Origin: Marivivens donghaensis
GTDB lineage: Bacteria; Pseudomonadota; Alphaproteobacteria; Rhodobacterales; Rhodobacteraceae
NCBI RefSeq assembly: GCF_023541015.1
Contig: NZ_JALNPR010000007.1
Span: 1 to 64,000, forward strand
DNA length: 64,000 nucleotides
Direction of reading: 5' to 3'
Every line of letters starts with the position of its first letter. The first letter of the stretch is position 1. The notes under the pieces were generated by a model that worked only from the letters and a program-made list of their open reading frames with translations, was not told where the DNA came from and did no database searches. Below, piece by piece: positions 4,609-42,535 of this stretch. The position numbers and the translations under genes were made by a program.

Positions 4609-4798
4609 GTCTAGTCTCCAAGTGTTCGACGCAACGTTGTCTACTGCGCCTTCGATGGGACCGTTATGACCGCCGCATCCCCACCCCCAAATATGCCAAA
4701 GGTGTATTTTAAGCCGTTTTTGGCCTCTATACCGATGGTTTATGGCAATTTTAGCAGGATTAGCCCTAAGTCTAGACCTCATAAAAAAGGGCAATCCA

Positions 4799-24762: not shown

Positions 24763-25056
24763 CGGCCCGTTTTTCCCATTCTTTGGTCGTATGTGCGTAT
24801 ATCGGTTGTCTGCTGGCTTCTGTCAAAGGTCAGAAAGTGCCGTTGCGTCAAAGTGCAGAAAAACAAAGGAAATTTTGCGAATCTGCAAAACGGTTTACTG
24901 TTTTTCAATTCTGTTGGTAAAAGATTTTACAAAAAAATACTGTTAGCGCTTATGTTTATGCGACCGTTGACAGGAAAATGGTGTATGACCACAGTCAAGT
25001 AAGCTTGGGGAGAGGAGCCCCGAGCCGAGATTTACAAAATGCTCGGGAGGAATTTC
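24763..25056. promoter_or_regulatory. Divergent GntR/acs regulatory region
   Basis: AT-rich and gene-free. A dyad TTTTGC-N6-GCAAAA lies at 24873-24890, and CAAAG recurs three times between about 24825 and 24870. Short-chain acyl-CoA regulators of the RamB/ScfR type use related TTTGC/GCAAA elements, so this is a candidate acs operator. The long A/T stretch at 24900-24955 probably contains the acs promoter. Confidence 0.4.
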
Positions 25057-27009
<1,953 letters not shown>

Positions 27010-27141: not shown

Positions 27142-27399
27142 ATGGCTAACAATGGCGACAACAACGCCTACTGGGCAGCCAACAAGCGGATCATCGGCAT
27201 CAGCCTCGTGATCTGGTTTGTTGTTTCGTTCGGTTTTGGCATCCTGCTGCGTCCGGTGCTTTCGGGCATCGCAATCGGTGGCACCGATCTGGGCTTCTGG
27301 TTCGCACAACAAGGTTCGATCCTTGTCTTTCTTGTTCTTATCTTTGTCTACGCTGCAAAGATGAACAAGCTCGACAAAGAGCACGGCGTGGACGAGTAA
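27142..27399 (+). CDS. DUF4212 small membrane subunit of the acetate-type symporter
   Basis: An 85-aa protein with two membrane helices (about residues 18-38 and 55-72) and the family motif Y-W-A-A-N-K-R near the N-terminus. DUF4212 proteins are encoded immediately before VC_2705-type sodium:solute symporters and are thought to assist them, like YjcH with ActP. GGAGG precedes the ATG, and the next gene starts 12 bases after its stop. Confidence 0.88.
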   Translation: MANNGDNNAYWAANKRIIGISLVIWFVVSFGFGILLRPVLSGIAIGGTDLGFWFAQQGSILVFLVLIFVYAAKMNKLDKEHGVDE

Positions 27400-27411
27400 G
27401 GAGCACAACCA

Positions 27412-29166
27412 ATGGATCAGTTTACGCTTAACCTGCTGGTTGTTGGTGCGACTTTCGCGCTCTACATCGGCATCGCGATCTGGGCTCGCGCCGGATCTAC
27501 TTCTGAATTCTATGCTGCAGGCCGTGGTGTTCACCCGGTTCTCAACGGCATGGCGACCGGCGCTGACTGGATGTCGGCAGCATCGTTCATCTCGATGGCT
27601 GGTATTATCGCATTCGGCGGCTACGACACTTCGGCTTACCTCATGGGTTGGACCGGTGGTTACGTTCTGCTCGCAATGCTTCTGGCACCTTACCTGCGTA
27701 AGTTCGGTAAATTCACCGTGCCGGAATTCATCGGCGACCGTTTCTACAGCCAAACTGCACGTACCGTTGCGGTTATCTGTCTGATCATCGCATCTGTTAC
27801 CTACGTTATCGGTCAGATGACCGGCGTTGGTGTTGCGTTCTCGCGCTTCCTCGAAGTGTCGAACTCGACCGGCCTGTTCATCGGTGCTGCAATCGTATTC
27901 ATGTACGCTGTTCTCGGCGGCATGAAAGGCATCACCTACACTCAGGTTGCTCAGTACGTTGTTCTGATCATCGCATACACCATTCCGGCTGTGTTCATCT
28001 CGCTCCAGCTGACTGGCAACCCGATCCCGGGTCTGGGTCTGTTCTCTGACTCTGTTGCGACCGGCCAACCGATCCTTCAGGACCTCGAAGGTCTTCTGAG
28101 CGATCTCGGCTTCAAGTCGTACCTCGCACAGTCTGACACCACCCTGAACATGTTCCTGTTCACCGTATCGCTCATGATCGGTACTGCAGGTCTGCCGCAC
28201 GTTATCGTTCGCTTCTTCACGGTTCCGACCGTTAAAGACGCACGTTCGTCGGCTGGTTGGGCTCTGGTGTTCATCGCGCTTCTGTACCTGACCGCTCCGG
28301 CTGTTGGTGCAATGGCTCGTCTGAACCTGATCAACACCTTCTACCCGAACGGCACATCGGAAGCTGCGCTTTCGCTTGCTGAAATCGAAGCTGGTGTAGA
28401 CGCACAGGGCAACGACGTGAACTGGGTGAACAACTGGGCTAAAACCGGTCTGCTGTCGTTCGACGACAAAAACGGCGACGGCGCTATCACCTATGCAAAC
28501 GGCGACGCAAACGAGCTGACCGTTAACCGTGACATCATGGTTCTGGCTAACCCTGAAATCGCACAGCTTCCGGGCTGGGTGATCGCACTGGTTGCTGCTG
28601 GTGGTCTTGCTGCTGCGCTTTCGACCGCTGCGGGCCTTCTGATGGCTATCGCATCGGCTGTTTCGCACGACCTGATCAAATCTCAGATCAACCCGAACAT
28701 CTCGGAAAAAGGCGAACTGATGGCTGCACGTGTTGCAATGGCTGTTGCTATTGCAGTTGCAACCTGGCTCGGCCTTAACCCTCCGGGCTTCGCTGCACAA
28801 ACCGTTGCTCTCGCATTTGGTCTGGCTGCTGCGTCGATCTTCCCTGCGATCCTGATGGGCATCTTCTCGAAGCGCATCAACAACAAGGGTGCAGTGGCTG
28901 GTATGCTCGCTGGTCTGATCACAACCATCGTTTACATCTTCCTGCACAAAGGTTGGTTCTTCGTCGCATCGACTGCGTCCTTCTCGGATGCTGACCCGCT
29001 GCTTCTGTCGATCAAATCGACCTCGTTCGGTGCTGTAGGCGCTCTGATCAACTTCATCGTAGCTTACCTCGTGTCCAACGCGACCGAAGAAGTTCCGGCT
29101 GACGTTCAGGAGCTGGTTGAAAGCATCCGCATTCCGCGCGGTGCAGGTTCGGCTATTGACCACTAA
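27412..29166 (+). CDS. Sodium:solute symporter, VC_2705/ActP-like (probable acetate uptake)
   Basis: A 584-aa SSS-family transporter with about 13 hydrophobic segments. The conserved opening Y-A-A-G-R-G-V-H-P-V-L-N-G-M-A-T-G-A-D-W-M-S-A-A-S-F and G-G-M-K-G-I-T-Y-T-Q are present. Between helices there is a ~60-residue hydrophilic insert holding an EF-hand-like loop, D-D-K-N-G-D-G-A-I-T-Y. Substrate acetate or propionate is inferred from acs and DUF4212. Codon use is of the highly expressed type. A strong terminator follows. Confidence 0.9.
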   Translation: MDQFTLNLLVVGATFALYIGIAIWARAGSTSEFYAAGRGVHPVLNGMATGADWMSAASFISMAGIIAFGGYDTSAYLMGWTGGYVLLAMLLAPYLRKFGKFTVPEFIGDRFYSQTARTVAVICLIIASVTYVIGQMTGVGVAFSRFLEVSNSTGLFIGAAIVFMYAVLGGMKGITYTQVAQYVVLIIAYTIPAVFISLQLTGNPIPGLGLFSDSVATGQPILQDLEGLLSDLGFKSYLAQSDTTLNMFLFTVSLMIGTAGLPHVIVRFFTVPTVKDARSSAGWALVFIALLYLTAPAVGAMARLNLINTFYPNGTSEAALSLAEIEAGVDAQGNDVNWVNNWAKTGLLSFDDKNGDGAITYANGDANELTVNRDIMVLANPEIAQLPGWVIALVAAGGLAAALSTAAGLLMAIASAVSHDLIKSQINPNISEKGELMAARVAMAVAIAVATWLGLNPPGFAAQTVALAFGLAAASIFPAILMGIFSKRINNKGAVAGMLAGLITTIVYIFLHKGWFFVASTASFSDADPLLLSIKSTSFGAVGALINFIVAYLVSNATEEVPADVQELVESIRIPRGAGSAIDH

Positions 29167-29211: not shown

Positions 29212-29241
29212 GGGCGCGGGAGTATATCCCGCGCCCTTTTT
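29212..29241 (+). terminator. Terminator after the symporter gene
   Basis: A 10-bp perfect stem GGGCGCGGGA / TCCCGCGCCC with a 5-nt loop and five T. It ends 17 bases before the DUF294 gene, so that gene needs readthrough or its own promoter. Confidence 0.85.
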
Positions 29242-29257
29242 CGATCACGAGGCTCCT

Positions 29258-31069
29258 TTGGAACACGCAGATATTATTCGGTTTCTCGCAACCACTCACC
29301 CTTATGACGGACTAGAGCGGCACGACATTAAAACGGTTGGTGCGGGGCTGATCCGCCGTGATGTTGTGACGGGCGAAACGATCTACAGCCATGATGATCC
29401 GCTCGAAGGGGTTTACCTGATTGAGGACGGCACGGTTGAGGTCACGGATGCGTCTGGTGCTTTGGTGTCGATCTTGGGCGCACGAAACCATTTCGGCGAA
29501 AGGGGTCTCTTGCGGGACGGGAAGGCCGCAACCAATGCCCGCGCGGCGAGCGATTGTGTGCTTCACCTATTTCCCGCTGATGCGTTTTTGAACGCGGTCA
29601 AACACTTCGCGACATTTAACCGATATTTCACCCGTGGCGGTGCCCGTGGCATCACCCAAGGCGGGATTTTAACGCTGCATGTCGCGGACATGTTGGCGCA
29701 TGAACCGATCACCTGCGTGCCCGATCTGGCGATCAAGGACGCCGCGCGGCTGATGCGGGATGAACGGATTTCATCGCTCGGGGTTGAGGAAAACGACAAG
29801 CTGGTCGGCATCCTCACCGTGCGCGATATGAACAACAAAGTTCTGGCAGAGGGTCTAAATCCTGACCTGCCTGTCTACACCATCATGACCCGCAACCCTG
29901 TGACGCTGGACCCGTCAGCCTTGGGGTCGGACGTGATGCATATGATGATCGACCACCGCATCGGTCACTTGCCGATCGTTGAGAATGGCAAGTTCCGTGG
30001 GATGATCACCCAGACCGACCTGACGCGGTTCCTCGCCACCTCGCAGGCGCATATGATCGCCGATTTGGGCCGCGCGACCAGCGTTGAGGAAATGTCCGAG
30101 GTGACGAAACGTCTGCCCGATTTCCTCATGCAGTTGGTCGGTAGCCACCTTGCCCACGACGTTGTTACCCGCAAAGTCACCGACGTGGCCGACATCGTAA
30201 CCCGTCGTCTGCTTAAGATGGCTGAGGTTAAATTCGGCCCCGCACCCGTGCCCTATTGCTGGGCCGCGTGTGGCAGCCAAGGTCGCCGCGAACAAACGGG
30301 CGTGTCGGATCAGGATAATTGTTTGATCATCCACGACAGTGCGACCGACGATGATATGAAGTATTTCGCGCAGCTCGCGACCTTTGTTTGTGACGGACTG
30401 AACGCCTGCGGCTATGTCTATTGCCCCGGTGATATGATGGCGACAGCCGACCGTTGGCGGCAGCGCCTGTCGGTCTGGCAGAGCTATTTCCGCATGTGGA
30501 TTGCCAAACCGAACGAAGAAGCGCAGATGTTGGCCTCCGTCATGTTCGACCTGCGGCCTATCGCGGGGGACGAGACGCTCTTTTCCGAACTTCAGGGCGA
30601 TACGCTGGCGATGGCGGCAAAGGATTCCATCTTTGTCGCGCATATGGCGTCGAATTCGCTCAAACACGTGCCGCCGCTGTCGCTGTTCCGTGGGTTCGCG
30701 ACGATCAAATCAGGTGAACACCGCAATACGCTCGATATGAAACACAACGGCGTTGTGCCGATAGTCGACCTTGGGCGGATTTATGCGCTCAAGGGTCAGA
30801 TCGCTGCGGTGAATACACGCGCGCGCATCGATAGCGCGATCGAGGCCGGCATTGTGTCCGAGGCAGGGGGCGCCGACCTCTTGGCCGCGTATGACACCAT
30901 CGCCACTGTGCGCCTAAACCATCAAGCGGCGCAGGTCCGTTCGGGGCAAAAGCCCGACAACTACCTGACGCCATCATCGTTACCAGCTTTCGAGCGGTCG
31001 CACCTTCGCGACGCGTTCGTCATCGTAAGAACCATGCAAAGCGCCCTGTCATCCTCGGCAGCGCGTTAA
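29258..31069 (+). CDS. cNMP-binding/CBS/DUF294 putative nucleotidyltransferase
   Basis: A 603-aa cytoplasmic protein. The order is a cyclic-nucleotide-binding fold (~1-125), a CBS pair (~150-270, with H-R-I-G-H-L-P-I-V), a GlnD-like nucleotidyltransferase domain DUF294 with G-S-Q-G-R-R-E-Q-T-G-V-S-D-Q-D-N (~335-355), and its C-terminal helical partner. The acidic S-D-Q-D pair is the expected metal site. The start is TTG 29258; no ATG is near and AGG lies seven bases upstream. Homologues accompany DUF4212/VC_2705 transporters and are thought to signal for acetate uptake; a nucleotidylated target is unknown. It is followed by a small membrane gene and the receiver/exonuclease pair, apparently as one operon. 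Confidence 0.88.
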   Translation: MEHADIIRFLATTHPYDGLERHDIKTVGAGLIRRDVVTGETIYSHDDPLEGVYLIEDGTVEVTDASGALVSILGARNHFGERGLLRDGKAATNARAASDCVLHLFPADAFLNAVKHFATFNRYFTRGGARGITQGGILTLHVADMLAHEPITCVPDLAIKDAARLMRDERISSLGVEENDKLVGILTVRDMNNKVLAEGLNPDLPVYTIMTRNPVTLDPSALGSDVMHMMIDHRIGHLPIVENGKFRGMITQTDLTRFLATSQAHMIADLGRATSVEEMSEVTKRLPDFLMQLVGSHLAHDVVTRKVTDVADIVTRRLLKMAEVKFGPAPVPYCWAACGSQGRREQTGVSDQDNCLIIHDSATDDDMKYFAQLATFVCDGLNACGYVYCPGDMMATADRWRQRLSVWQSYFRMWIAKPNEEAQMLASVMFDLRPIAGDETLFSELQGDTLAMAAKDSIFVAHMASNSLKHVPPLSLFRGFATIKSGEHRNTLDMKHNGVVPIVDLGRIYALKGQIAAVNTRARIDSAIEAGIVSEAGGADLLAAYDTIATVRLNHQAAQVRSGQKPDNYLTPSSLPAFERSHLRDAFVIVRTMQSALSSSAAR

Positions 31070-31079
31070 GGGAGGACGC

Positions 31080-31568
31080 ATGTTATATGAATTAGTCGCG
31101 GTCGTGATCGCGGGCGTGGGGATGGCAGGGATTGCCTTCGGCATACGGAAAATCACTCGTAACCGCGCACCACAATGGATCGTGCCTGTGATGGCTGGCC
31201 TCGGGATGTTGGGGCTGAGCGTCTACAACGAATACTCGTGGTTTGAAGTAACCTCGGGGGGCCTGCCCGAGGGCGCAGAAGTCATCGACACCGCAGAGGT
31301 CAAAGCGTTTTACAAACCGTGGACCTACGCTTGGCCGCAGGTCGAAGGCTTTTTGGCCGTTGCAGATGTCACTGACACAGCGGCGACAGGTGAACGCGAG
31401 GCGGTTCTCTATCGCATGATGCGTTGGCAACCCGAGCAGGTGATTGCTGTTCGGTTCAAATGTGAAACCTCGGAAATTGCGCGGGTTTTGGCGGATGGCG
31501 GTGCTGAACCCTTTGCGCCGCTCGACCCCCAAGACCCAATGATGCAGGCGGTGTGTTCCCGCTCTTAA
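31080..31568 (+). CDS. Small membrane protein of the acetate cluster, unknown function
   Basis: A 162-aa protein with two N-terminal membrane helices (about 5-22 and 32-48). A hydrophilic domain containing S-W-F-E-V-T and W-T-Y-A-W-P-Q follows, and the protein ends in two Cys-containing strands. I do not recognise a named domain. It starts ten bases after the DUF294 stop and ends 18 bases before the receiver gene, so co-transcription is likely. A role in membrane localisation of this signalling unit is only inference. Confidence 0.65.
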   Translation: MLYELVAVVIAGVGMAGIAFGIRKITRNRAPQWIVPVMAGLGMLGLSVYNEYSWFEVTSGGLPEGAEVIDTAEVKAFYKPWTYAWPQVEGFLAVADVTDTAATGEREAVLYRMMRWQPEQVIAVRFKCETSEIARVLADGGAEPFAPLDPQDPMMQAVCSRS

Positions 31569-31586
31569 TGTTGTGTGGAGAGTAAA

Positions 31587-31967
31587 ATGGGTGAGAAAAA
31601 AGTCCTCTTGGTCGAAGACGAACGACCGATAACCAAGGCAATCGCGACGATGTTGGGCGCGAATGGTTTGGTGGTTGATGTTGCCTCAACGGCTGAAATG
31701 GCTCTCACCCAGATTGCCTCGAACGGTTACGACCTCTTGGTCATTGATGCGAGCCTGCCCGATCAATCGGGATTTGCCTTGTGTCAAACGTTACGCCTGC
31801 GCGAAGATTTCGACGCGCTGCCGATCATCCTGATGACCATTCGCAACACCGACATTGAGGTCCGCAAGGCTAAGGCCGTCGGTGCGACCGCGACCCTGAC
31901 CAAACCTTTTGGCCCCGCAGAGTTGCGCGCGACTCTCGCGCCGTTTGTGCAGTTGGAGAGCCTATGA
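31587..31967 (+). CDS. Stand-alone response-regulator receiver
   Basis: A 126-aa CheY-like receiver: V-L-L-V-E-D-E-R for the acidic pocket, phosphoacceptor Asp in L-L-V-I-D-A-S-L-P-D, the Thr in I-I-L-M-T-I-R and the Lys in L-T-K-P-F-G. There is no output domain. ATG 31587 has GGAG at the right distance; the upstream GTG at 31575 does not. Its stop overlaps the start of the sensor-exonuclease (ATGA), so a physical or regulatory partnership is likely. Confidence 0.9.
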   Translation: MGEKKVLLVEDERPITKAIATMLGANGLVVDVASTAEMALTQIASNGYDLLVIDASLPDQSGFALCQTLRLREDFDALPIILMTIRNTDIEVRKAKAVGATATLTKPFGPAELRATLAPFVQLESL

Positions 31968-34051
31968 TGAAGCTAGACCGCCTACATCTGCGTCTTCGGA
32001 TTCTGCTGTTCTTTGTGTTCATGACCCTCGGCGGGTTGGGGATTTTTGGCGCTGGCCTGTGGCTGGGCAGTCAGCGCGAACAGGACGGTTTCCTCTTTGC
32101 AGAGATCATTGGTGGTTTTGGCTTTTTGGGGCTGATGACGTGGATTTGGTATCTGTTTGACGAAAACCTCGCCAAGCCGATGCAATGGCTGGCGGGTGCC
32201 CTGATCGCGCGGGCGCATACGGACATTGAAGAGGAACTGGACCCGAAAACCGCGCGTTACCTTGGTGATCTCGCCCCTGCCGCACGTGAGGTCACACGCC
32301 ACCTCGCGCAGACCCGCAACGCCTTGGCCGAGACGGTGGCGCAGGAAACCACGCGGTTGATCAATGAAAAACAGCAGCTCGTCGCGATGGCGGCGGATGT
32401 GCCGTTCGGTGTGGTGCTCTGTTCGGGAACGCATAAAATAGCGTTCTACAACTCTGTAGCTGCTGAAATGCTGGACGAGGACCACCATCACCCTGGCCTC
32501 GACCATTCGCTGTTCGACTTCCTCGAACCTGAACCGATTTTGGATGCCTATAACCGCCTTTGCGCATACGGGCAGGGGCCCGATATGGTCATCCCGACCT
32601 TGGTTACGACCGTATTGGGGCATCGGACGCTCTCTGCGCGGATGCGGTTGACCCACGCCGCCGACGAAAGCGATGCGACGCCCGGTTACGTGATGTCGAT
32701 CGACGATGTGACCCATGATTTGGCGGTGGTCGGACAATCGACGGCGCTGCTCACGCGTGTTTTTGCGGACTTGCGCCCGCATATGGCGTCGCTTCGCACG
32801 GCGATTGAGTTCCGCAAACGGGACGCCGCCCTCGCCGCTGATCCGGAAATGACCGAAGGGTTGATCGACGGGCTAGACACGATGCTGCACAGCATTGGTG
32901 ATCATTTTGACGAATACGACAGCAGTCGTGGATCACTTTGGCCGATGGAGGATGTCTCGGCCCGTCAGATCGTCAACGCGGTGAAATCGCGGCTGGAGAT
33001 CAACGATCTGACCGTCGAAGGTCCAGATGCAACCCGACTGCATGTCGCCGCGCTGCCGATTATCGTGCTGCTCGCGCATCTGTGCGACCGCGTGGTCAAT
33101 CAGCACGGCGGGCGGGTGCCGTCACTGATCGTCGCGGACGAAGACGATTGCCCGATGATCGCCGTGGGTTGGAGCGGTGATGCGCTACCCTTTGATATTA
33201 TGTCTCAGTGGCTGGATGAGCCTCTCGATTTTGGCGTGCCTGGCGTGACGGGGCGGTCGGTTCTGCGGATTCACGCGACTGATTGCTGGCCAGAGTTCGG
33301 GCGCTTTGGACGGTCGGTCCTGAAAATCTCGCTGCCACATCTGGCGGGTCGCAAGCTGCCGTCTATGCAGCGGGGGGTCGAATATGACTTTGACCTTATG
33401 CAGAAAACGCCACCCGCCAAACTGACAAAGGCAAAGCTGTCTGACCTGACTTTTGTTGTGTTCGATACCGAAACCACGGGTCTGTTGCCGTCCCAAGGCG
33501 ACGAGATTTGCCAAATTGCTGCTTTGCGCGTTGTGAATGGCCGCATCGTTGAGGGTGAGCAGATCAATCGGCTCGTGAACCCTGAACGTCCGATCCCTGC
33601 GCGGTCAACCGAGGTGCATGGGATCACCGACGAAATGGTCGAGAACGCCCCAACTATCGAAGTTGTGGGCGCTCAATTCCATAGCTTTGCCCGTGGGTCG
33701 ATCTTGGTCGCGCATAACGCGCCGTTCGACCTCGAATTTCTAAGGCGCCATGAGGCTGGGATTGGCAAAGCCTTTACTAACCCCGTGTTAGACACTGTTT
33801 TGCTCTCTGCGATCGTGTTCGGTCAGGACGCGGAACATACGCTCGATGCGATTTGTCAGCGGTTGGGGATCGTGATTCCGCCCGAACAAAGGCATACGGC
33901 TATGGGCGATACGATTGCCACGGCCCACGCCTTTATCAAGATGACGGCGATGTGCGAGGCGCGCGGAATTGAGACGTTTGGCGATGTCATTGCCGAAGGG
34001 CGCAAGCATAAACGGCTTATTCAGGATCTAAATACCGACCTAGAAATCTAG
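31964..34051 (+). CDS. Membrane PAS/pseudokinase-like sensor fused to a DEDDh 3'-5' exonuclease
   Basis: A 695-aa protein. Two membrane helices (~12-33, ~44-64) are followed by a helical linker (~65-135) and a PAS-like region (~140-250). A region of histidine-kinase length (~250-475) follows without a recognisable phosphoacceptor His or HATPase N/G boxes. The C-terminal DnaQ/RNase T-type domain (~495-680) has all five catalytic residues: D501 and E503 (F-D-T-E-T-T-G), D589 (A-P-F-D), H644 and D649 (H-T-A-M-G-D). Separate exonuclease genes accompany DUF294/symporter clusters in other proteobacteria; the sensory half here makes a membrane-bound, possibly signal-gated nuclease (inference). Substrate unknown. 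It overlaps the receiver gene by four bases and the convergent kpsT by four. Confidence 0.85.
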   Translation: MMKLDRLHLRLRILLFFVFMTLGGLGIFGAGLWLGSQREQDGFLFAEIIGGFGFLGLMTWIWYLFDENLAKPMQWLAGALIARAHTDIEEELDPKTARYLGDLAPAAREVTRHLAQTRNALAETVAQETTRLINEKQQLVAMAADVPFGVVLCSGTHKIAFYNSVAAEMLDEDHHHPGLDHSLFDFLEPEPILDAYNRLCAYGQGPDMVIPTLVTTVLGHRTLSARMRLTHAADESDATPGYVMSIDDVTHDLAVVGQSTALLTRVFADLRPHMASLRTAIEFRKRDAALAADPEMTEGLIDGLDTMLHSIGDHFDEYDSSRGSLWPMEDVSARQIVNAVKSRLEINDLTVEGPDATRLHVAALPIIVLLAHLCDRVVNQHGGRVPSLIVADEDDCPMIAVGWSGDALPFDIMSQWLDEPLDFGVPGVTGRSVLRIHATDCWPEFGRFGRSVLKISLPHLAGRKLPSMQRGVEYDFDLMQKTPPAKLTKAKLSDLTFVVFDTETTGLLPSQGDEICQIAALRVVNGRIVEGEQINRLVNPERPIPARSTEVHGITDEMVENAPTIEVVGAQFHSFARGSILVAHNAPFDLEFLRRHEAGIGKAFTNPVLDTVLLSAIVFGQDAEHTLDAICQRLGIVIPPEQRHTAMGDTIATAHAFIKMTAMCEARGIETFGDVIAEGRKHKRLIQDLNTDLEI

Positions 34052-34746
34052 CACTGATAGGCCCAGATTGCATCGTTCACATTGTCGAACCACATGAGGT
34101 GCCCGTCGCGGAGCACCATTCCCGCGCTGCACAAATTGCGCAACTGGTCCATATTGTGGCTGACCATGATCGCGCCCGCGCTTTCCATGCGTGACTTAAA
34201 GGCCATCGCGCTTTTTGCACGGAATTTGGCATCGCCCACGGCAGTCACTTCGTCCACGAGGTAGAGGTCAAATGGCAGCCCCATCGACAGGGCAAAAGCC
34301 AAACGTGCCCGCATTCCCGACGAATACCCCCGCACCGGATTGTTGATCTGATCGCCTAGGTCGGCAAAATCGGTGACGAAGTCCAACAGGGCTTCGGTGT
34401 CGACGCCATAGGCCCGCGCGACAAAGCGTGTGTTTTGCGCGCCCGTCAGATCGCCGTGGAATGATCCCGCAAAGCCAACGGGCCAACTGACCGTGCCGTT
34501 GCGCAGGATACGGCCCGCGTCGGGGCGCAAACTGCCACTGATCATGCTAAGGAGCGTCGATTTCCCCGCACCGTTTTCCCCAAGCAGCGCAACTGCCGTG
34601 CCCGCCGGGATAGTCATAGAGATATTGTCTGCCACCACGATGTCGCGTCCTTGGCCGCGAAAGGCTTTGGTCACGCCGTTGATCTGAACAATCGGCGCAT
34701 GATTGCGAGGAGGGCTTGGCTGGTCTGGTCGAAACTGAAAGGTCAT
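34048..34746 (-). CDS. kpsT: ABC transporter ATPase for polysaccharide export (KpsT-like)
   Basis: A 232-aa ATPase: Walker A G-E-N-G-A-G-K-S-T, signature Y-S-S-G-M-R-A-R-L (the KpsT/Wzt-type Y-S-S-G-M), and Walker B L-Y-L-V-D-E-V. The D-E-V-T-A-V-G-D-A-K-F stretch is characteristic of capsule exporters. Chosen start M-T-F-Q-F-R-P at 34746. The cognate permease KpsM is 7 kb away at 41756-42535 on the same strand, so the transporter genes are split. It energises export of capsule polymer together with KpsE and the Wza/KpsD-like protein. Confidence 0.9.
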   Translation of the reverse strand: MTFQFRPDQPSPPRNHAPIVQINGVTKAFRGQGRDIVVADNISMTIPAGTAVALLGENGAGKSTLLSMISGSLRPDAGRILRNGTVSWPVGFAGSFHGDLTGAQNTRFVARAYGVDTEALLDFVTDFADLGDQINNPVRGYSSGMRARLAFALSMGLPFDLYLVDEVTAVGDAKFRAKSAMAFKSRMESAGAIMVSHNMDQLRNLCSAGMVLRDGHLMWFDNVNDAIWAYQC

Positions 34747-34877
34747 CGTTACACCACTACATTCGGCACCTTTCGCACGGCTCACACTAACCTTGCGTTT
34801 AGGTGGATATGGTTAACTATCGCAAAGCGTGCGCGAGAAGTGTGTAATTCTTTCGGGTATATCATTATCCCCAAAGG

Positions 34878-36017
34878 TTATAGCCTATCCCTTAGGGAAT
34901 AATAAATCAGCGCCATCACCGCCCAGCCCAATGTGGTGAATAGAAGGATCAGGCCCAAGATCACCTCGCGGCGGGGATAGCTCGGTCGTTCTGCTAAAGT
35001 CGGTTGGATATAGGACGCAAGGTAGAGCGATTGGCGCTGCGCTTCGGCAATAGCGGCGTCATAAGCCTGCCGCGCGGCCCCATAGGCGAGCTCTGCAAAT
35101 TCGCGATCCGCGGCGAGGCGTTCGTAGTCCGCGATGGTCGTCGCATAGGCAGGATCACCGTTTTCGCCCGCACCAAATTTGCCCCGTTCCTCGTCGATAC
35201 GGGCGCGGATCACTTCGATCCTACGGGTGATTTGGTCGAGCCTCGGGTCCCCGTCGCGCACAGTGCCGGATAGAAGGTCGAAATCGATCAACGCTTCGGC
35301 CAGTTGCGCCTGAAGCGTGGTAAGGAGGCCCATTTGCCCCGCAACGTCCGCCTCTGGATCTACGATCTGGTTGCGAGTCCGAAATTCGGTCAGCGCCTCG
35401 CGGATGTCACGCAGACGGTCCTCTGCGCGGGTGAGGTCTTCGGCGGCATAGCGGGTGGCGTCGAGACGAGCCTGATCCGAAAGCGCGTTTATCATCACCG
35501 TGCTCTGGTCATAGATTGCGGTCGCGATTGCCTTGGCGTCCTCGGCGGTAAAGGCAATCGCCGAAACCTCCATCATGCCCGTGCCCGTGTCATAGGAGAT
35601 TTTGAGCATCCGTTGCCAATAATCGGTCAGATCCTCAATCGTGCCCTCAGGGTTAAACCCCATGAGCGGATCGCTGGTATAATGCACGGAATAGAGACGA
35701 CGCAGGTCCAATTCCGCGTCGATTTTCGCGACGATGTCTTGGCTGCGGATGAAAGCGTAGAGGATGTCGCTCTCGGATGACGAGGACGCGCCGAGGGTTC
35801 GTCCCAATCCGCTAAAGAGGTCCGTGTTGATTGACGTTTCCTCTTTGCGGACCGTGAAGCCGAGCGTTGAGGCGAATTGATCCTTTGCGATCAGATAGAG
35901 ATAAGCGGCAGCAATCGCGGCAGGGAGAATAACGATCAGCACAAACGACCAGAGGAGCCCGCGATGGCGGGGGCGCAGGGTGGCCGCATGGGCTGGTGGC
36001 AGAGGCGATTGCGTCAT
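34878..36017 (-). CDS. kpsE: Capsule export inner-membrane protein (KpsE-like)
   Basis: A 379-aa PCP-family protein with one membrane helix near each end (~22-42 and ~353-375) and a long helical periplasmic middle (A-E-D-L-T-R-A-E-D-R-L-R-D-I-R-E-A-L-T-E-F-R and R-I-E-V-I-R-A-R-I-D-E-E-R). This is the KpsE/BexC topology linking the ABC transporter to the outer-membrane channel. It is 21 bases downstream of the GlfT2-like gene, in the operon glf-GT2-kpsE-kpsT. Confidence 0.88.
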   Translation of the reverse strand: MTQSPLPPAHAATLRPRHRGLLWSFVLIVILPAAIAAAYLYLIAKDQFASTLGFTVRKEETSINTDLFSGLGRTLGASSSSESDILYAFIRSQDIVAKIDAELDLRRLYSVHYTSDPLMGFNPEGTIEDLTDYWQRMLKISYDTGTGMMEVSAIAFTAEDAKAIATAIYDQSTVMINALSDQARLDATRYAAEDLTRAEDRLRDIREALTEFRTRNQIVDPEADVAGQMGLLTTLQAQLAEALIDFDLLSGTVRDGDPRLDQITRRIEVIRARIDEERGKFGAGENGDPAYATTIADYERLAADREFAELAYGAARQAYDAAIAEAQRQSLYLASYIQPTLAERPSYPRREVILGLILLFTTLGWAVMALIYYSLRDRL

Positions 36018-36038
36018 CGTTTCTCCTTTGGTCAGAGC

Positions 36039-36977
36039 CTAGTCCTTTGCCCGTGGCCGCGCCAGATGTAGCGGATCATACCGCCCGCGTTTTCGCCGCA
36101 GCCCATGCCAGAACGCACGGGCAAAGATCGCAAAATAGGCGCGCTGTTCCCCGCCGCGTAGCCTCAGCCCCCGCTTGGTCCAGACCAGAACGAGGTAGGC
36201 AAGCGCAGCGGGGAACATCCATCCTGCGGCAACACGGGCGACTTCGACCCCGTTGCGGATGGTGTAGTGGTTTTTCCATAACGGACGGTAAACATCGCCC
36301 GAAGCGAGCGTCTCGCAATCATGGATGAACTGCATCTGGGGCAGGGTGCGAATACGCCAGCCCGCCTTGCGCAGGGCGAGGCTATAGAGAATGTCGTCCG
36401 AATAGAGGAATAGGCCCGCCTCTGGTTTCGGGATTTTTCGCGCGACAGACCCGCGCAGGGCATAACCGACAAAGGTCGCCGCATCGATGTCGCGGGCAGT
36501 GTCGGCAGGCACGGTAAATCCGCCGCGCCCGTGGCGAAGGGTGGTCAGAGCGCGATCCTTGAGGCTCCAGAACGGGTTGATGATCGGGCGGTTCATGTCA
36601 GAAGCAGTTCCATCGGACAGTCGAACATCGGCGGCAAGAACGGCAATGTCGGGCGAAATAGTCTCTAACTCAGCCCAAAGCTGGGTCATTGCGCCGCCAG
36701 CGGGCCAAGCATCATCGTCGAAAAGTACCAGCCAATCAGCATTTTCTGCAGCCTCTATCCCCGCCGCAAAGCCTCCTGCGCCACCGATGTTTTCGGGGAG
36801 GTTGATAACAGTCAGCCGAGGATCATTGATGTGCGCTAAAACCTCTGCCGTGCCGTCCGTCGAGGCATTGTTCACCACGAACACCTGATCGAACGGTTCC
36901 GCCAAGGTGCGATCCAGCGTCCACCGCAAGCGATCCGCCCGATTGTAAGTCACGATCACGGCGGCGATGCGGGTCAT
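36039..36977 (-). CDS. GT2 glycosyltransferase, galactofuranosyltransferase-like (GlfT2 type)
   Basis: A 312-aa GT-A enzyme: A-A-V-I-V-T-Y-N-R-A-D-R at the nucleotide end, N-N-A-S-T-D-G-T, L-P-E-N-I-G-G-A-G-G-F-A-A-G and the D-D-D-A-W-P metal motif. The I-G-G-A-G-G-F and D-D-D-A combination is typical of galactofuranosyltransferases. It overlaps the end of the UDP-galactopyranose mutase gene by four bases (ATGA), and that neighbour makes the Galf donor. Its product is probably the exported polysaccharide. Confidence 0.85.
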   Translation of the reverse strand: MTRIAAVIVTYNRADRLRWTLDRTLAEPFDQVFVVNNASTDGTAEVLAHINDPRLTVINLPENIGGAGGFAAGIEAAENADWLVLFDDDAWPAGGAMTQLWAELETISPDIAVLAADVRLSDGTASDMNRPIINPFWSLKDRALTTLRHGRGGFTVPADTARDIDAATFVGYALRGSVARKIPKPEAGLFLYSDDILYSLALRKAGWRIRTLPQMQFIHDCETLASGDVYRPLWKNHYTIRNGVEVARVAAGWMFPAALAYLVLVWTKRGLRLRGGEQRAYFAIFARAFWHGLRRKRGRYDPLHLARPRAKD

Positions 36978-38122
36978 AGCGGGCGCACCGAAAATACAGG
37001 CGGGCAGGTTCTGTTTGCCGTGGCCGAGAGGTAAGCGGCGGCGGTGTCCAGCGCCTCGCGGATGGTCACGTCCATGTCGATGTAACGGTAGGTGCCCAAG
37101 CGGCCCACGAATGTAGTGTTGCTTGTCGCCTCTGCCGCCTCAACATAGCGGGCCAGCAGCTCCCGCTGATCCAATCGTCGCGTCGGGTAATAGGGCACAT
37201 CGTTCGGCCCGCAGTCGATCGCGGTTTCCGCATAGAGCACGGATGCATCGTGATTTTCCCACGGCGCGAGGTGCTTTTGTTCAGTGATCCGTGTGTAGGG
37301 GACGGTTTCATCCCCGAAATTCATCACCGCACAGCCCAGCCAATCACCCCGTTCGCGGAACTCATCAAACCGAAGGCTCCGATACCCGAGCCGTCCGAAT
37401 TGATGGTCAAAAAACCCATCGAGAGGGCCAGTCCAAAAGGTATGATCGTAGGTTGCTAGATCAGCCTGCGTCATTGGTTGACCCAGTTGCACAGTGATCA
37501 AAGGATGGTCCAAAATAGACTCTATTAAGGCCGTATACCCATCCGTTGGCATCCCGATGTAGGGATGGTCAAAGTAGCTGTCATCGTAGTTGAAACGCAG
37601 TGGCAACCGTCGAAACACCGCGGCTGGGATTTCCGTCGGCGGGCAGCCCCATTGTTTCACCGTATAACCGCGAAAGAACGCCTCGTAGAGCGCGGGCCCG
37701 ATGGAGGCGAGCGCGGCTTCTTCAAAGTTGGCGGGGTTCGGGATGTCGACGCATTGCGCGGCGATAAACGCGCGTGCCTCGTCTGACCGCATCGCTGTGC
37801 CGAAAAACTGGTTAATCGTCTGGAGGTTTATGGGCAGAGAATAGACGTTCTCTGCCACCGTTGTCCGCACCGCGTGGCGATAGGGGTGAAACGCGGCAAA
37901 GCGGTTTACGTAATTCCAAACGTCCCGATCCCCCGTGTGGAAAATATGCGGCCCATGGTGGTGGAGCAGGATTCCAGTCTGCGCATCACGTGAGGTGTGG
38001 CAGTTTCCGCCGACGTGATCACGGCTCTCGATCACAGTCATGGTCAACCCAGCATCGGCCAATTGGCGGGCAATGACAGCGCCCGAGAATCCCGCCCCTA
38101 CAACAACGATGCCTTTAGCCAT
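36974..38122 (-). CDS. glf: UDP-galactopyranose mutase
   Basis: A 382-aa flavoenzyme interconverting UDP-Galp and UDP-Galf. FAD-binding G-A-G-F-S-G-A-V-I-A, E-S-R-D-H-V-G-G-N, H-H-H-G-P-H-I-F-H-T, the W-G-C-P-P-T-E-I region, and the C-terminal G-R-L-G-T-Y-R-Y-I-D-M-D block are all present. The start M-A-K-G-I-V-V-V-G at 38122 is chosen over the longer frame. It heads the operon running through GT2, kpsE and kpsT, and is divergent from the Wza/KpsD-like gene across 38123-38292. Confidence 0.94.
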   Translation of the reverse strand: MAKGIVVVGAGFSGAVIARQLADAGLTMTVIESRDHVGGNCHTSRDAQTGILLHHHGPHIFHTGDRDVWNYVNRFAAFHPYRHAVRTTVAENVYSLPINLQTINQFFGTAMRSDEARAFIAAQCVDIPNPANFEEAALASIGPALYEAFFRGYTVKQWGCPPTEIPAAVFRRLPLRFNYDDSYFDHPYIGMPTDGYTALIESILDHPLITVQLGQPMTQADLATYDHTFWTGPLDGFFDHQFGRLGYRSLRFDEFRERGDWLGCAVMNFGDETVPYTRITEQKHLAPWENHDASVLYAETAIDCGPNDVPYYPTRRLDQRELLARYVEAAEATSNTTFVGRLGTYRYIDMDVTIREALDTAAAYLSATANRTCPPVFSVRPL

Positions 38123-38292
38123 GGACGCCCTCTGTTTACTCACCGCTAGGTAACGTGGTGGCCGCACGATTTACCAGTCGAAACTACCAAATATTGTGGG
38201 TAAAGCCGCGAAGGGGCCTACAAGTTATTGACCATATCCATTTGGGTAGTATGGTGCAAAGACTGCTTATCATAGCCACTCCCGGGGGGGAC

Positions 38293-39405
38293 ATGGGGTT
38301 TTCATATCGTCATCTGATGGCCGCTGGCCTTTGTGTCACCCTAGCCGCGTGTAACACGCCGCGTGGTGCTGGTTTCCAGTCAGAAGTGATCGCTGCCGCG
38401 CGACCCTCCCAATCTGGCGAAGAGGCTGCGTTCGAAGTGGTCGCTGTCACCCGTGATACCCAATCAGGTCTGGCTGCGTGGCCTGTGGTTGGTGACACGT
38501 CGCGGTCGTGGATCCGCAATGCAGGTCAGCCGTCGTCGTTAATCATTAACACCGGCGATGTTGTTACTGTGACCGTTTGGGAAACGGGCGAAAACGCGCT
38601 GCTTGCTGGCGCGGGGGGAAGTGCGGCGCAGCTCCAAGACGTTGTGGTGTCCTCGAACGGTGAAGTGTTCTTGCCCTTCGTTGGGGATCTGAAAATCTCG
38701 GGCATGTCGCCTGAAACGGCGCGTCAGCGGATTGAGGAAAAATACCTCGAAACGATCCCGTCTGCGCAGGTGCAGATTGCTGTGACCCCAGGCCGTGCGA
38801 ATACCGCAAACCTCGTTTCTGGCGTTGGTGCGCCGGGTGTGTATCCGCTCGAAGGTCGGAACGTGACGGTTCTGTCGCTGATCGCCCAAGGTGGCGGCGC
38901 GCGCGGCGGTATGGCGAACCCGCAGGTAAAGCTGATCCGTGGCTCCTCCGTTTATGGCATCTCGCTTGATCGTCTGTTCGATAACCCCTCGCTGGATGCT
39001 GAAGTGCAGGGCGGCGACCGTATCCTCATCGAAGAAGACGACCGTACCTTCCTCGCGCTCGGCGCTGCAGGCACACAATCCGAATTCGTTTTCCCCGATG
39101 ATCGCGTGACCGCGCTTCAGGCGCTTTCGCTGATCGGCGGCGTGGATGCTGGCCGTGCGAACCCCAAAGGCGTGTTGGTTCTGCGGGAATACCCCGCATC
39201 AGTCCTGCGCACCGACGGCACTGGCCCCGCGAAAGAGCGGGTCGTGTTCACCGTGGACCTCACAACCGCAGACGGCCTCTTTGCCGCCCGCAACTTTGAG
39301 ATCATGTCTGGCGACCTCGTTTATGCCACCGAAAGCCCGATCAATTCCGCCCGCAGCGTGCTGGGTCTGATCGGTTCCGCACTGGGCATTTCGAACAGTC
39401 TGTAG
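38293..39405 (+). CDS. Outer-membrane polysaccharide export lipoprotein (Wza/KpsD family)
   Basis: A 370-aa protein with a lipoprotein signal ending in L-A-A-C (Cys near residue 20). A Poly_export domain follows (I-N-T-G-D-V-V-T-V-T-V-W-E, S-S-N-G-E-V-F-L-P-F-V-G-D-L-K-I-S-G), then SLBB-type repeats (G-V-G-A-P-G-V-Y-P-L; T-A-L-Q-A-L-S-L-I-G-G-V-D-A). ATG 38293 is chosen because it gives the lipobox and follows a G-rich ribosome site; the frame upstream to 38155 lacks these. It forms the outer-membrane exit for the capsule made by the flanking genes. Confidence 0.9.
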   Translation: MGFSYRHLMAAGLCVTLAACNTPRGAGFQSEVIAAARPSQSGEEAAFEVVAVTRDTQSGLAAWPVVGDTSRSWIRNAGQPSSLIINTGDVVTVTVWETGENALLAGAGGSAAQLQDVVVSSNGEVFLPFVGDLKISGMSPETARQRIEEKYLETIPSAQVQIAVTPGRANTANLVSGVGAPGVYPLEGRNVTVLSLIAQGGGARGGMANPQVKLIRGSSVYGISLDRLFDNPSLDAEVQGGDRILIEEDDRTFLALGAAGTQSEFVFPDDRVTALQALSLIGGVDAGRANPKGVLVLREYPASVLRTDGTGPAKERVVFTVDLTTADGLFAARNFEIMSGDLVYATESPINSARSVLGLIGSALGISNSL

Positions 39406-39407
39406 GT

Positions 39408-40943
39408 CTAAAACCCCCAATCCGTGTCTCCGTTGACCATCTGTTTTAAGGTGTCATCGGGGATGTCGACCGTTCCGCAGAACCGCCACAGCACGTCTTG
39501 TAGGGACGGGTCGATGGCATCGTTGTTTTCGTCGATCATCGTGAGGTTTGAATAGCGATCGATGGGCACGAGGTCGTGTAGGACGAGTTGATCCCATGTC
39601 AGCGGGTTTGACGATTGGATATGCAGTGTTTCCTCGCCGTAGGTCAGCGTGAGGCCATCCTGCGTTTCGGTGTAGCCGATCTGGGACAAATTACGGATGA
39701 GGCCCCAACTGCTGATGTCGATGCGGTCCTCGCCGAGTGTGAAATCGGTGATCGTGTCAGGGGTGCCGTCGGGGATAAAGATGAACACATCTTCACCTGC
39801 GCCACCTGTCAGCATGTCGATCCCGCCGCCATCGAAGATCAGGTCGTCGCCGTCGGTGCCCAATAGCGTTTCCGCCGAATTAGTGCCTGATATCGTCGCC
39901 CCATTGGGGTCGAACGTGAGGTGGGTGATGCCCGTCTCGCTCGCTGATCCGACGTAGATGTCGATGATCCCATCGGTGCTGCCAAGTTCAATCGTGGACA
40001 CATCGGCGAGGCCCGCTGTGACGGTGTCGGCCACGTGCGCGACGGGTTCCAACATACCGTTGGGGAGGAGGGAAAAGACGCTCACCCCGTCATCCGCGCC
40101 GCCTGCCGCGACCCACGTTTCGCCGTCGACTTGGATCGTGGCCAGTGCTGTGACGCCTGCGAACCGCGTGTCTAAGTCGTCGATCACATGGTCGATCACG
40201 GACATGGCGCCTGTTGCATCCAAGGTGACGACTGAGAGCGATCCGCTGCCCGCTGCGGCAACGATCATGTAGGTATTCGCGCCGATCACTACGGTTTCAA
40301 TCGCGGTGGGGGCCGAGATCCACAGCCCGTCCGAGGCGTCGACTGTATCTTCGACCCAGAGGTTGCCGTTGTCTGCCACCGACCACAGGGTAAGGCCGTT
40401 CATCTCTTGGGCCAGGGTCACGATATACTGTGTGGTGCCAAAGTTCGCCTTGGTCATCGCTGTGATGCCAGAGGCGTAGGATTGCGCGGTGTCGGGCGTA
40501 TAGCCTGTGCCGAGGAGCGCGCCATTGCCCGAAAACTGGAGCCGCGCGATACCGTCCTCACCCCAGAAGCCGCCGTAAAATCCGATACGGCCTGAGGCTA
40601 ACGTGACGGCTGAGCTGGCGGTGATGTCAGACGGCCACGAGAATTCGCCGTAGTCTATTGCCGTGGACAGAGCGCCATCTGTTAAGCTGATCAATTGTAG
40701 GCTGCCGTTTGCGCCGCCTCCTGTCAGCAGAGCGGGGCCGTCGGAAAAGTTGACAACTGTCAACTCCGCCTCGCCTCCTACGGTATCGGTGCGAGTGTGA
40801 GCGAGGCTGTCGATTTGGCTGAGGTCGCTCGTCCAACTTTCAATCGCGCCGCCGTAACGTGAGGTGCCGACCAGCACGCCATCAATCACCACCAGATCAG
40901 TATAAAGCGCCGCCCCTGCGCGGCCAGCATAGTCGATGTTCAT
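39408..40943 (-). CDS. Secreted RTX/hemolysin-type calcium-binding protein with propeller-like N-terminus
   Basis: A 511-aa protein. Residues ~1-330 have repeating beta-strand units (for example L-T-V-V-N-F-S-D-G-P-A-L-L-T-G-G and T-Y-M-I-V-A-A-A-G-S-G-S-L-S-V-V), suggesting a beta-propeller. RTX nonapeptides follow (L-L-G-T-D-G-D-D-L-I-F-D-G-G-G, L-T-G-G-A-G-E-D-V-F-I-F), then the D-T-I-T-D-F-T-L-G-E-D-R-I-D motif that usually ends such domains. There is no N-terminal signal, as expected for type I secretion. ATG 40943 has GGGAG six bases before it. The one-mismatch palindrome 6 encodes its E-L-T-V-V-N stretch. Confidence 0.8.
   Translation of the reverse strand: MNIDYAGRAGAALYTDLVVIDGVLVGTSRYGGAIESWTSDLSQIDSLAHTRTDTVGGEAELTVVNFSDGPALLTGGGANGSLQLISLTDGALSTAIDYGEFSWPSDITASSAVTLASGRIGFYGGFWGEDGIARLQFSGNGALLGTGYTPDTAQSYASGITAMTKANFGTTQYIVTLAQEMNGLTLWSVADNGNLWVEDTVDASDGLWISAPTAIETVVIGANTYMIVAAAGSGSLSVVTLDATGAMSVIDHVIDDLDTRFAGVTALATIQVDGETWVAAGGADDGVSVFSLLPNGMLEPVAHVADTVTAGLADVSTIELGSTDGIIDIYVGSASETGITHLTFDPNGATISGTNSAETLLGTDGDDLIFDGGGIDMLTGGAGEDVFIFIPDGTPDTITDFTLGEDRIDISSWGLIRNLSQIGYTETQDGLTLTYGEETLHIQSSNPLTWDQLVLHDLVPIDRYSNLTMIDENNDAIDPSLQDVLWRFCGTVDIPDDTLKQMVNGDTDWGF
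40749..40764. repeat. parS-like palindrome 6 (one mismatch, inside RTX gene)
   Basis: GTTGACAACTGTCAAC differs from the others at one central base that is invariant in the consensus. It is 23 kb from the rest, so it may be a distal weak site or chance. Confidence 0.45.
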
Positions 40944-41050
40944 CGCCATCTCCCGTGTTCCACCGAACCAATGGTCAGTGGGCGGACGGTCAGGGGCAGG
41001 GGCGAAAATGAGGCGTAATGGCGGCCTTTGGGTCGGGTTTAATCCAAAGA

Positions 41051-41680
41051 TTATTCGAGTTTTAAGTTCTCCAACCGTGCGGAAATCTGGCTGTCGGTAT
41101 CATCGCTGTCCGCGGACAGGGCCAAACCAACAAGGGCAGTCGCCTCACCACCAAAAGCGCGAGCATAGTCGGCGGCGAGATTGACGGATTCCGTGTAGCT
41201 GCCCCTGCCCGCCGGTCTCCGAATGATCGTTCGACCCCGATCACCGAGGTAAGGAGAGGGCAGGACATCGCCGATCTTATGATCGCCGCCAAAGACATAC
41301 ATCAGCACCCGCGCCTCCTCGACCGCGAGGAGGCTGCGGATTGAGGCGGATTGATTTTGACGCGCTACATCTTCGGGCATGAACACGAAATAGAGCGATA
41401 GGTTCCGATCATCGCCACCCTTTTGCGTGAGGTCGGTTGGCGGCACGCTCGTTGTGACGGACCAATCCCAGCGGGCCCGACGCGTTGACCAGTCAGACGG
41501 GAGGAGCGCGGTCCACAACATCGACACTGTTCCCGCGCTTTGCACATCAACTGATGTCTCGGTCGCGGTATAATCGTTTGATGAAAACAGCGCGAATTTC
41601 TGTTCTGTCCAATTGGTCATGGGATTGGCCGCTGCATTGCTTGCGGCGAGGGTGAATAGGGCGGCGATTAGGTTGCGCAT
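41051..41680 (-). CDS. DUF3047 family exported protein
   Basis: A 209-aa protein with a signal peptide (M-R-N-L-I-A-A-L-F-T-L-A-A-S-N-A-A-A). The DUF3047-type pattern includes A-R-W-D-W-S-V-T near residue 65-75, then a beta-rich body with L-M-Y-V-F-G-G-D and a final L-V-G-L-A-L-S-A-D-S-D-D-T-D-S. The family is found in marine proteobacteria and its function is unknown. GGAGG precedes the ATG. It lies between the RTX protein and kpsM on the same strand. Confidence 0.75.
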   Translation of the reverse strand: MRNLIAALFTLAASNAAANPMTNWTEQKFALFSSNDYTATETSVDVQSAGTVSMLWTALLPSDWSTRRARWDWSVTTSVPPTDLTQKGGDDRNLSLYFVFMPEDVARQNQSASIRSLLAVEEARVLMYVFGGDHKIGDVLPSPYLGDRGRTIIRRPAGRGSYTESVNLAADYARAFGGEATALVGLALSADSDDTDSQISARLENLKLE

Positions 41681-41755
41681 TTGTGTCCTCCGTCACGGTA
41701 TAGGTAACGGGCGGCGCTGATCTGTAAACGCTCCTCTAGCGAACGTGATAGGCTG

Positions 41756-42535
41756 TCACAAAATCCTGTCGTGATTGGCGCGGAGCAGGATTAGACCGAA
41801 AACCAGTGCAATCAGGCCGAAGCTATAGCCGTAGGTGAGCGAGGCGTAGGTGGCCTCATAGGTTGGATAAAACCCCGCGCGAACCAGCCCGACGCCATGG
41901 ATCAGCGGGTTCCACCAGAGCCATGTACGCAATGGCTCTGTCACGTTGTCGAGGATGAAGAACACACCCGAGGCAAAGAAGATCGGGCGCGAGGCGATGG
42001 CCCAGATGCGGCCCCAAAATTCGAACCGACCTGTGAGGTAGCAGTTCAGCGTACCGATGCCTGCGCCGAGGAGGGCGACCATGCCGATGCCTTGGGCTAT
42101 TGGGATGGGGTCGATGTCTGCCTCGGCTGATGTCAGCGCGATGATGCCGCCGATCACGAGGATCGAGACGACGATCCCTGTCAACAGGTGCAAGGCCACG
42201 CGCGCAAGGATCGCATCGATCCACAGCACCCGCGGATAGGCCAAGAGCATCCGTGAATAGCGCAGAGTGTTCATCACCTTTGTTGAGAGTTCGCCGTAGA
42301 TGTGGATCGGCAAAAACCCTGTCGCATAGAACAGCATAAAATTGCTGCCCAAGGACGGTTTGTTGATCATCAGTGAAAACCCGAACGCCATGATCGCGAT
42401 GGCGCCCAAAGGTTCTAACACGGCCCAAAGATAGCCACCGGGTGAGCGACCATAGGTCGATGCCATCTCACGCAGGATCAAGGCCATGATCGAACGGAGC
42501 GTGGTGAATCTGGGGCGAGACAGGGTTGCGGTCAT
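41756..42535 (-). CDS. kpsM: ABC transporter permease for polysaccharide export (KpsM-like)
   Basis: A 259-aa ABC-2 type permease with six hydrophobic segments. The characteristic N-terminal block L-I-L-R-E-M-A-S-T-Y-G-R-S-P-G-G-Y-L-W-A-V-L-E-P is present, as is the C-terminal W-N-P-L-I-H-G-V-G-L-V-R region. It pairs with the KpsT-like ATPase, 7 kb downstream on the same strand. The separation and the intervening RTX and DUF3047 genes suggest rearrangement of an ancestral kps cluster (inference). The ribosome site is weak. Confidence 0.88.
   Translation of the reverse strand: MTATLSRPRFTTLRSIMALILREMASTYGRSPGGYLWAVLEPLGAIAIMAFGFSLMINKPSLGSNFMLFYATGFLPIHIYGELSTKVMNTLRYSRMLLAYPRVLWIDAILARVALHLLTGIVVSILVIGGIIALTSAEADIDPIPIAQGIGMVALLGAGIGTLNCYLTGRFEFWGRIWAIASRPIFFASGVFFILDNVTEPLRTWLWWNPLIHGVGLVRAGFYPTYEATYASLTYGYSFGLIALVFGLILLRANHDRIL

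Follow-up and report, generated by a model that had tools for sequence, protein, structure and literature searches.

The question raised by this locus is why a membrane-bound sensor protein, encoded alongside a receiver and a solute symporter, should end in a nuclease. The window, by which is meant the whole stretch of 64,000 nucleotides of Marivivens donghaensis that was analysed, contains a cluster ordered acs, DUF4212, symporter, cNMP/CBS/DUF294, small membrane protein, receiver and sensor-exonuclease, with its 3' end at position 34051, where a convergent ABC-transporter gene faces it. The features of the cluster are the following:

25039..27009, + strand: acs, acetyl-CoA synthetase (Pfam AMP-binding, E = 1.1e-91; ACAS_N)
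27142..27399, + strand: DUF4212 symporter small subunit (PF13937, E = 2e-34; TIGR03647)
27412..29166, + strand: VC_2705-family sodium/solute symporter, not ActP proper (TIGR03648, 820 bits)
29212..29236, + strand: strong stem-loop resembling an intrinsic terminator, between symporter and DUF294 gene (10 pairs, 9 of them G-C, TTTTT tail; consensus match only)
29258..31069, + strand: cNMP-binding/CBS/DUF294 nucleotidyltransferase protein (PF00027, PF00571, PF03445 with E = 2e-44, PF10335)
31080..31568, + strand: small membrane protein with no Pfam family (one clear N-terminal hydrophobic stretch by hydropathy)
31587..31967, + strand: stand-alone receiver (Response_reg, E = 2e-23; phospho-Asp D54 at 31746-31748)
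31964..34051, + strand: sensor-exonuclease, 695 aa (AlphaFold mean pLDDT 88)

The coordinates and 695-aa length given in the preliminary description are correct, as is the four-base overlap between receiver and sensor (31964-31967). The receiver starts at an ATG (31587), with an alternative GTG start possible at 31575, and the start codon of the DUF294 gene, as called, is TTG. Gene order is nearly constant over 109 loci of the group to which the window belongs, chosen to include long, intermediate and short frames; acs opens the conserved cluster in most loci of the family, and a profile built for the small membrane protein matches the family set almost without exception. Rhodobacter capsulatus (L142) also carries the cluster. 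The designation of the transporter as an acetate symporter needs correction. The family is VC_2705 (TIGR03648), the score against the ActP equivalog TIGR02711 (147 bits) falls far below the cut-off of 1099, and acetate as the substrate is suggested by the adjoining acs gene. Given the terminator-like stem-loop that follows the symporter gene, the genes from DUF294 through receiver to exonuclease may be expressed separately or at a lower level.

Within the sensor-exonuclease, five parts could be distinguished:

31988..32161, + strand: residues 9-66, pair of membrane helices of the intramembrane type, joined outside by a very short loop (AlphaFold, hydropathy)
32408..32707, + strand: residues 149-248, PAS domain (PAS_4 in 40/60 relatives; model)
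32711..32938, + strand: residues 250-325, DHp-like helical hairpin (phosphoacceptor site A268 at 32765-32767; conserved R271)
32948..33331, + strand: residues 329-456, degenerate CA (ATPase-fold) domain (N-box Asn mostly Arg; G1 Asp = Trp403)
33431..34033, + strand: residues 490-690, DEDDh (DnaQ/PolC-like) 3'-5' exonuclease (RNase_T; PDB 2p1j, 2gui)

The C-terminal domain had been described as a complete DnaQ-type nuclease and this is borne out, with RNase_T (PF00929) matching residues 498-657 (E = 2e-39) and all five residues D501, E503, D589, H644 and D649 present in the window protein and invariant in 169/169 aligned rows. The nearest structures are PolC/DnaQ exonucleases, including 2p1j (E = 5e-29) and 2gui (TM 0.86 to the target, rmsd 2.1), and identity to the solved epsilon and PolC exonuclease domains is 30-39 %. 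On the basis of the RNase_T fold and the five residues, the domain is a predicted member of the DEDDh 3'-5' exonuclease family. It shares the catalytic domain of the DnaQ/PolC enzymes, but is fused to a membrane sensor rather than forming part of a polymerase.

Such a fusion could have arisen by chance, or as an annotation artefact, in this genome alone. This explanation has a negligible likelihood and can be ruled out by the genus survey, in which 187/397 genera sampled from the family carry a relative of the exonuclease, and by the recurrence of this architecture in named Alpha-, Beta-, Gamma- and Deltaproteobacteria, Nitrospirota and Acidobacteriota. A form joining membrane helices, PAS and exonuclease was also found in two Flavobacteriales-type MAGs. 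The architecture is thus old, occurring in about half of the sampled genera of the family and in several phyla. In Piscinibacter aquaticus (L188:7521-9887) sensor and exonuclease lie in two consecutive frames, through a genuine split of the gene or through a frameshift in sequencing. Stand-alone distant exonucleases of ~260 aa (L245-L248, L258, L259), which lack strong DUF294 or symporter neighbours, were set aside as probably belonging to another family.

The N-terminal half of the protein is built like a sensor. Both membrane helices named in the preliminary description are supported by the AlphaFold model (residues 9-36 and 42-85, the second extending into the cytoplasm) and by hydropathy peaks (7-35 and 43-61). 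Similarly, the PAS-like region is corroborated by PAS_4 matches in 40/60 relatives, several of them above the cut-off, and by a PAS-like fold at residues 149-248 of the model, in which a long helix lies between membrane helices and PAS; Pfam detected no PAS domain in the window protein itself. As the protein has no periplasmic domain, the source of its input would be the membrane, where the symporter or the small membrane protein could signal to it, or else the cytoplasm, by way of the PAS domain. BceS is an active kinase that works with an ABC transporter, and the sensor-exonuclease resembles such intramembrane-sensing kinases in its two membrane helices, very short outer loop and gene association with a transporter; it differs in that BceS is catalytically active and has an ABC transporter as partner, the interaction of the sensor-exonuclease with the symporter being a putative one. 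A true kinase of the same genome, which carries the motif RIAHEIKNPLTPIQ, shares 27 % identity with the part comprising membrane helices and PAS, and this is consistent with descent of the sensor-exonuclease from an ordinary sensor kinase.

Between PAS and exonuclease lies what had been described as a kinase-length region without phosphoacceptor or ATP-binding boxes. The absence of these boxes was confirmed, but the homology of the region to histidine kinases had gone unseen. Neither HisKA nor HATPase_c has a Pfam match in the window protein, and a scan of the whole genome gave 23 HATPase_c matches, with the middle region of the sensor-exonuclease absent among them. Ten distant relatives scanned singly yielded no kinase Pfam domain above the cut-off, and among 60 relatives HATPase_c is absent from the 25 families listed, with a weak HisKA match in 4/60. 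A profile of the region built from 57 relatives, compared by hhalign with ten true kinases of the same genome, nevertheless aligned end to end (probability 97.3, E = 2.5e-11, 205 columns), against at most 2.2 for shuffled, reversed, PAS and EXO controls. AlphaFold confidently predicts both the DHp hairpin (250-325) and the CA fold (329-456), and in Foldseek searches the middle region alone matched HK853 (E = 7e-11), DivL (4q20; E = 2e-9), BceS within its transporter complex (E = 1.5e-7) and WalK. On the strength of the profile alignment, predicted fold and structural matches, the region is a histidine-kinase core by descent.

This core has lost the catalytic residues. No His occurs at the phosphoacceptor position of the family alignment (0/56 relatives), where 45/56 carry Glu or Asp and the window protein Ala268; the G1-box Asp is replaced by Trp in 55/57 relatives and the N-box Asn mostly by Arg. 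The most conserved residue of the hairpin core is the Arg three positions past the phosphoacceptor site (Arg271 in the window; 48/56), an Arg also common in ordinary kinases. The protein thus lacks both the phosphoacceptor His and the HATPase_c N and G boxes of a sensor histidine kinase, and the middle region is a pseudokinase, its DHp-CA fold homologous to kinases but devoid of their catalytic residues. It could be argued that the region is still an active kinase with an acidic phosphoacceptor and a non-canonical ATP site, given the acidic residue kept in 45/56 relatives and the retained CA fold. However, with Ala268 in the window protein, the G1 and N-box replacements and no HATPase_c match in 60 relatives, this alternative is very improbable and was rejected. 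A functional HATPase, which would have spoken against the original reading, was accordingly not found in the profile searches for PAS, HisKA and HATPase.

If the kinase core is dead, its relation to the adjacent receiver becomes the central issue. The receiver keeps D11, E12, D54, T84 and K106, and thus the acidic pocket, phospho-Asp, Thr and Lys of a functional receiver, and in most lineages the phosphorylation site is retained. In two related genomes the phospho-Asp is replaced by Asn, as in L036; phosphorylation-site residues are also lost or changed in L037, and the receivers of L105 and L045 are degenerate. These altered sites suggest that versions acting independently of phosphorylation exist.

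Three forms of the protein occur in the Rhodobacteraceae, namely a short form (~470 aa) with PAS joined straight to the exonuclease, a hairpin-shortened form with the CA domain, and a long form. The receiver gene is present with long forms, L107 being the one exception, and absent with the other two, while L045 combines a reduced hairpin with its degenerate receiver. A supported clade in which only the hairpin is shortened, by ~25 residues, and the CA region is kept lacks the receiver. Across the family, an adjacent receiver accompanies 56/57 proteins with the hairpin versus 1/46 without it (table 56/1/1/45; Fisher 6e-27), the hairpin cut-off of 50 residues having been set after the lengths were seen and four members of the hairpin-shortened clade (40-41 residues) being scored as without hairpin; a hand count outside the Rhodobacterales gave the table 27/11/0/9 (p = 1e-4), and as the rows are phylogenetically related and independent contrasts few, these Fisher values overstate the evidence. 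On the tree there are six changes for the receiver and eight for the hairpin, with two independent contrasts on fully supported branches and six on all branches. The association is clear but phylogenetically clumped. Mirror-tree partial correlations of the receiver with DHp (0.28), TM-PAS (0.34), CA (0.09) and EXO (0.13) are too weak to tell the DHp and the N-terminal part apart. Of the Rhodobacteraceae loci examined, a set picked by frame length, roughly one in three lacks both pseudokinase and receiver, and receiver control is thus not essential to the core function.

The DHp hairpin is the place where receivers dock on kinases, and the co-inheritance of the two points to docking of the receiver on the dead kinase, by analogy with DivL and DivK. 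In Caulobacter, the dead, PAS-bearing kinase core of DivL reads the phosphorylation of the single-domain receiver DivK through its DHp surface, and R553, three residues past the phosphoacceptor site and matching Arg271, is needed to bind DivK~P (PMC4211667). The DivL structure 4q20 is among the Foldseek matches described above. The systems differ in output, which is the kinase CckA for DivL and a covalently attached exonuclease here, where docking is our proposal, and in the phosphoacceptor site, a Tyr in DivL and acidic or Ala in the sensor-exonuclease family. Alternatively, the pseudokinase might be a purely structural transmitter from PAS to nuclease, with the receiver acting elsewhere, for example on a true kinase. 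The short forms without a middle region would agree with this, as would 11 distant members that retain the hairpin without an adjoining receiver; yet the receiver tracks the DHp hairpin specifically, even in the clade that keeps the CA domain and shortens the hairpin, and the Arg used in receiver docking is conserved, making the transmitter explanation improbable. The earlier reading of a membrane signalling protein ending in a nuclease and coupled to a receiver is supported by architecture and co-inheritance alike, and gating of the nuclease by the receiver appears reasonably likely.

CrbS/MxtR histidine kinases (SLC5-STAC), which function in acetate use, join an SSS-family symporter domain with PAS and kinase modules. 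They carry symporter and active kinase in one protein, whereas the window has a separate symporter, a dead kinase and a nuclease output, and the sensor-exonuclease, with just two membrane helices, lacks the N-terminal SLC5 domain. A CrbS-type kinase was also considered as partner and rejected, as none of the 23 HATPase_c proteins of the genome has an open frame longer than 897 aa and none of the stretches compared resembles the symporter; the comparison is suggestive rather than proof since the stretches reach just ~500 residues upstream.

The second recurrent partner is the DUF294 protein. Its nucleotidyltransferase motif GSQGRREQTGVSDQD is intact in the window and present in 107/109 family loci, and the DUF294 family has one good match in this genome. 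The expected association with DUF294 and symporter genes is nearly constant in the Rhodobacteraceae; among 53 distant loci outside this family, some of them incomplete, DUF294 lies within the fetched locus in 36 and the symporter in only 21, so that the symporter part holds less well. In six genomes (L059, L260-L264) exonuclease, CBS and DUF294 form one polypeptide; these proteins (L059:4509-6776 and those of L260-L264) are 700-820 aa long and come from several alphaproteobacterial genera. We know of few established substrates for DUF294 nucleotidyltransferases. From these gene associations, in which both active sites are intact, a common substrate is proposed, tentatively and with rather less than even confidence.

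A nuclease output was initially thought to have no established explanation in acetate uptake, but this overlooked PP_0353/PP_0354 of Pseudomonas putida, an operon of an exonuclease and a CBS protein, in which the acetate regulator ErdR (MxtR/ErdR system) binds the PP_0354 promoter and deletion of PP_0353 impairs growth on pyruvate but not on acetate (PMC9927547). A role in mRNA decay was put forward there as speculation (PMC9927547). In P. aeruginosa the homologues adjoin actP, and the PA3232-PA3235 cluster is induced on propionate (PMC9765439). As PP_0353/PP_0354 are published under acetate control, the link between exonuclease/CBS proteins and acetate is not new. This MxtR/ErdR or CrbSR regulon resembles the window cluster in its RNase_T exonuclease and CBS protein, acetate two-component control and actP link, the likeness of PP_0353 to the window exonuclease resting on the published RNase_T match and the operon. 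It differs in that neither sensor domains nor a receiver partner are mentioned for the exonuclease, and the control described there is transcriptional (PMC9927547).

Two accounts of the nuclease can be weighed on this basis. In the first, on which the balance of probability falls slightly, the protein would be a membrane-anchored exonuclease derived from a histidine kinase, whose core would have ceased to phosphorylate and would now serve as docking platform for the receiver encoded just upstream. Signals from membrane helices and PAS (possibly via the symporter or small membrane protein) and the phosphorylation state of the receiver would be integrated by the DHp/CA pseudokinase to switch the DEDDh 3'-5' exonuclease fused to it, which would most likely act on the substrate of the neighbouring CBS-DUF294 protein, the one adding and the other removing nucleotides at a shared RNA 3' end or nucleotidylated target. 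This activity may tune how acetate or related monocarboxylates are taken up and used. The physical docking, direction of control, kinase of the receiver, substrate and physiological effect are the elements that we infer. In the second account, the exonuclease would act in RNA decay, clearing particular mRNAs or small RNAs on a change of carbon source, with transporter, TCA or glyoxylate genes as candidate targets and DUF294 as a separate sensor in the same regulon. The speculation on PP_0353 and the delayed growth of its deletion mutant on pyruvate (PMC9927547) favour it, as do the DnaQ/PolC exonucleases as closest structures, with RNase T among the weaker PDB matches. It is nonetheless somewhat unlikely, as it fails to account for the repeated single-protein fusion with the DUF294 nucleotidyltransferase and leaves the membrane tethering of the nuclease unexplained.

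The sensor-exonuclease system is real and widespread, and combines known parts, a DivL-like dead kinase with receiver and a nuclease output. Receivers control transcription, second-messenger enzymes and other kinases. Gating of a nuclease via a repurposed kinase core would, if true, represent a new output class in several phyla, in which two-component signalling may switch a nuclease instead of a gene. No exonuclease-kinase-receiver fusion was found described in searches of the literature outside subscription papers, and the pseudokinase-receiver-nuclease architecture thus appears undescribed. The broadest reading, a widespread non-transcriptional two-component branch in which a phosphorylated receiver docked on a dead kinase switches a membrane-tethered 3'-5' exonuclease that undoes what a CBS/cNMP-controlled DUF294 nucleotidyltransferase does, the two forming an add-and-remove nucleotide switch for monocarboxylate uptake, is speculative and rather unlikely. 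The proposed receiver-docked, DUF294-opposed exonuclease offers a testable explanation for the Pseudomonas exonuclease gene, with its effect on pyruvate growth and its control by an acetate two-component system, and the cluster gives a concrete starting point for DUF294 nucleotidyltransferases. The natural short, hairpin-shortened and receiver-less variants represent ready-made controls.

Judging by sequence appearance, the region downstream of the cluster (34048-42535) encodes capsule or polysaccharide export functions (ABC transporter parts and an outer-membrane export protein), a glycosyltransferase and a UDP-galactopyranose-mutase-like protein. By the same measure, a hybrid histidine kinase with a C-terminal receiver is encoded at 5340-7856, adjoined on the other strand (4742-5338) by a small LuxR-type regulator with a hydrophobic N-terminus.
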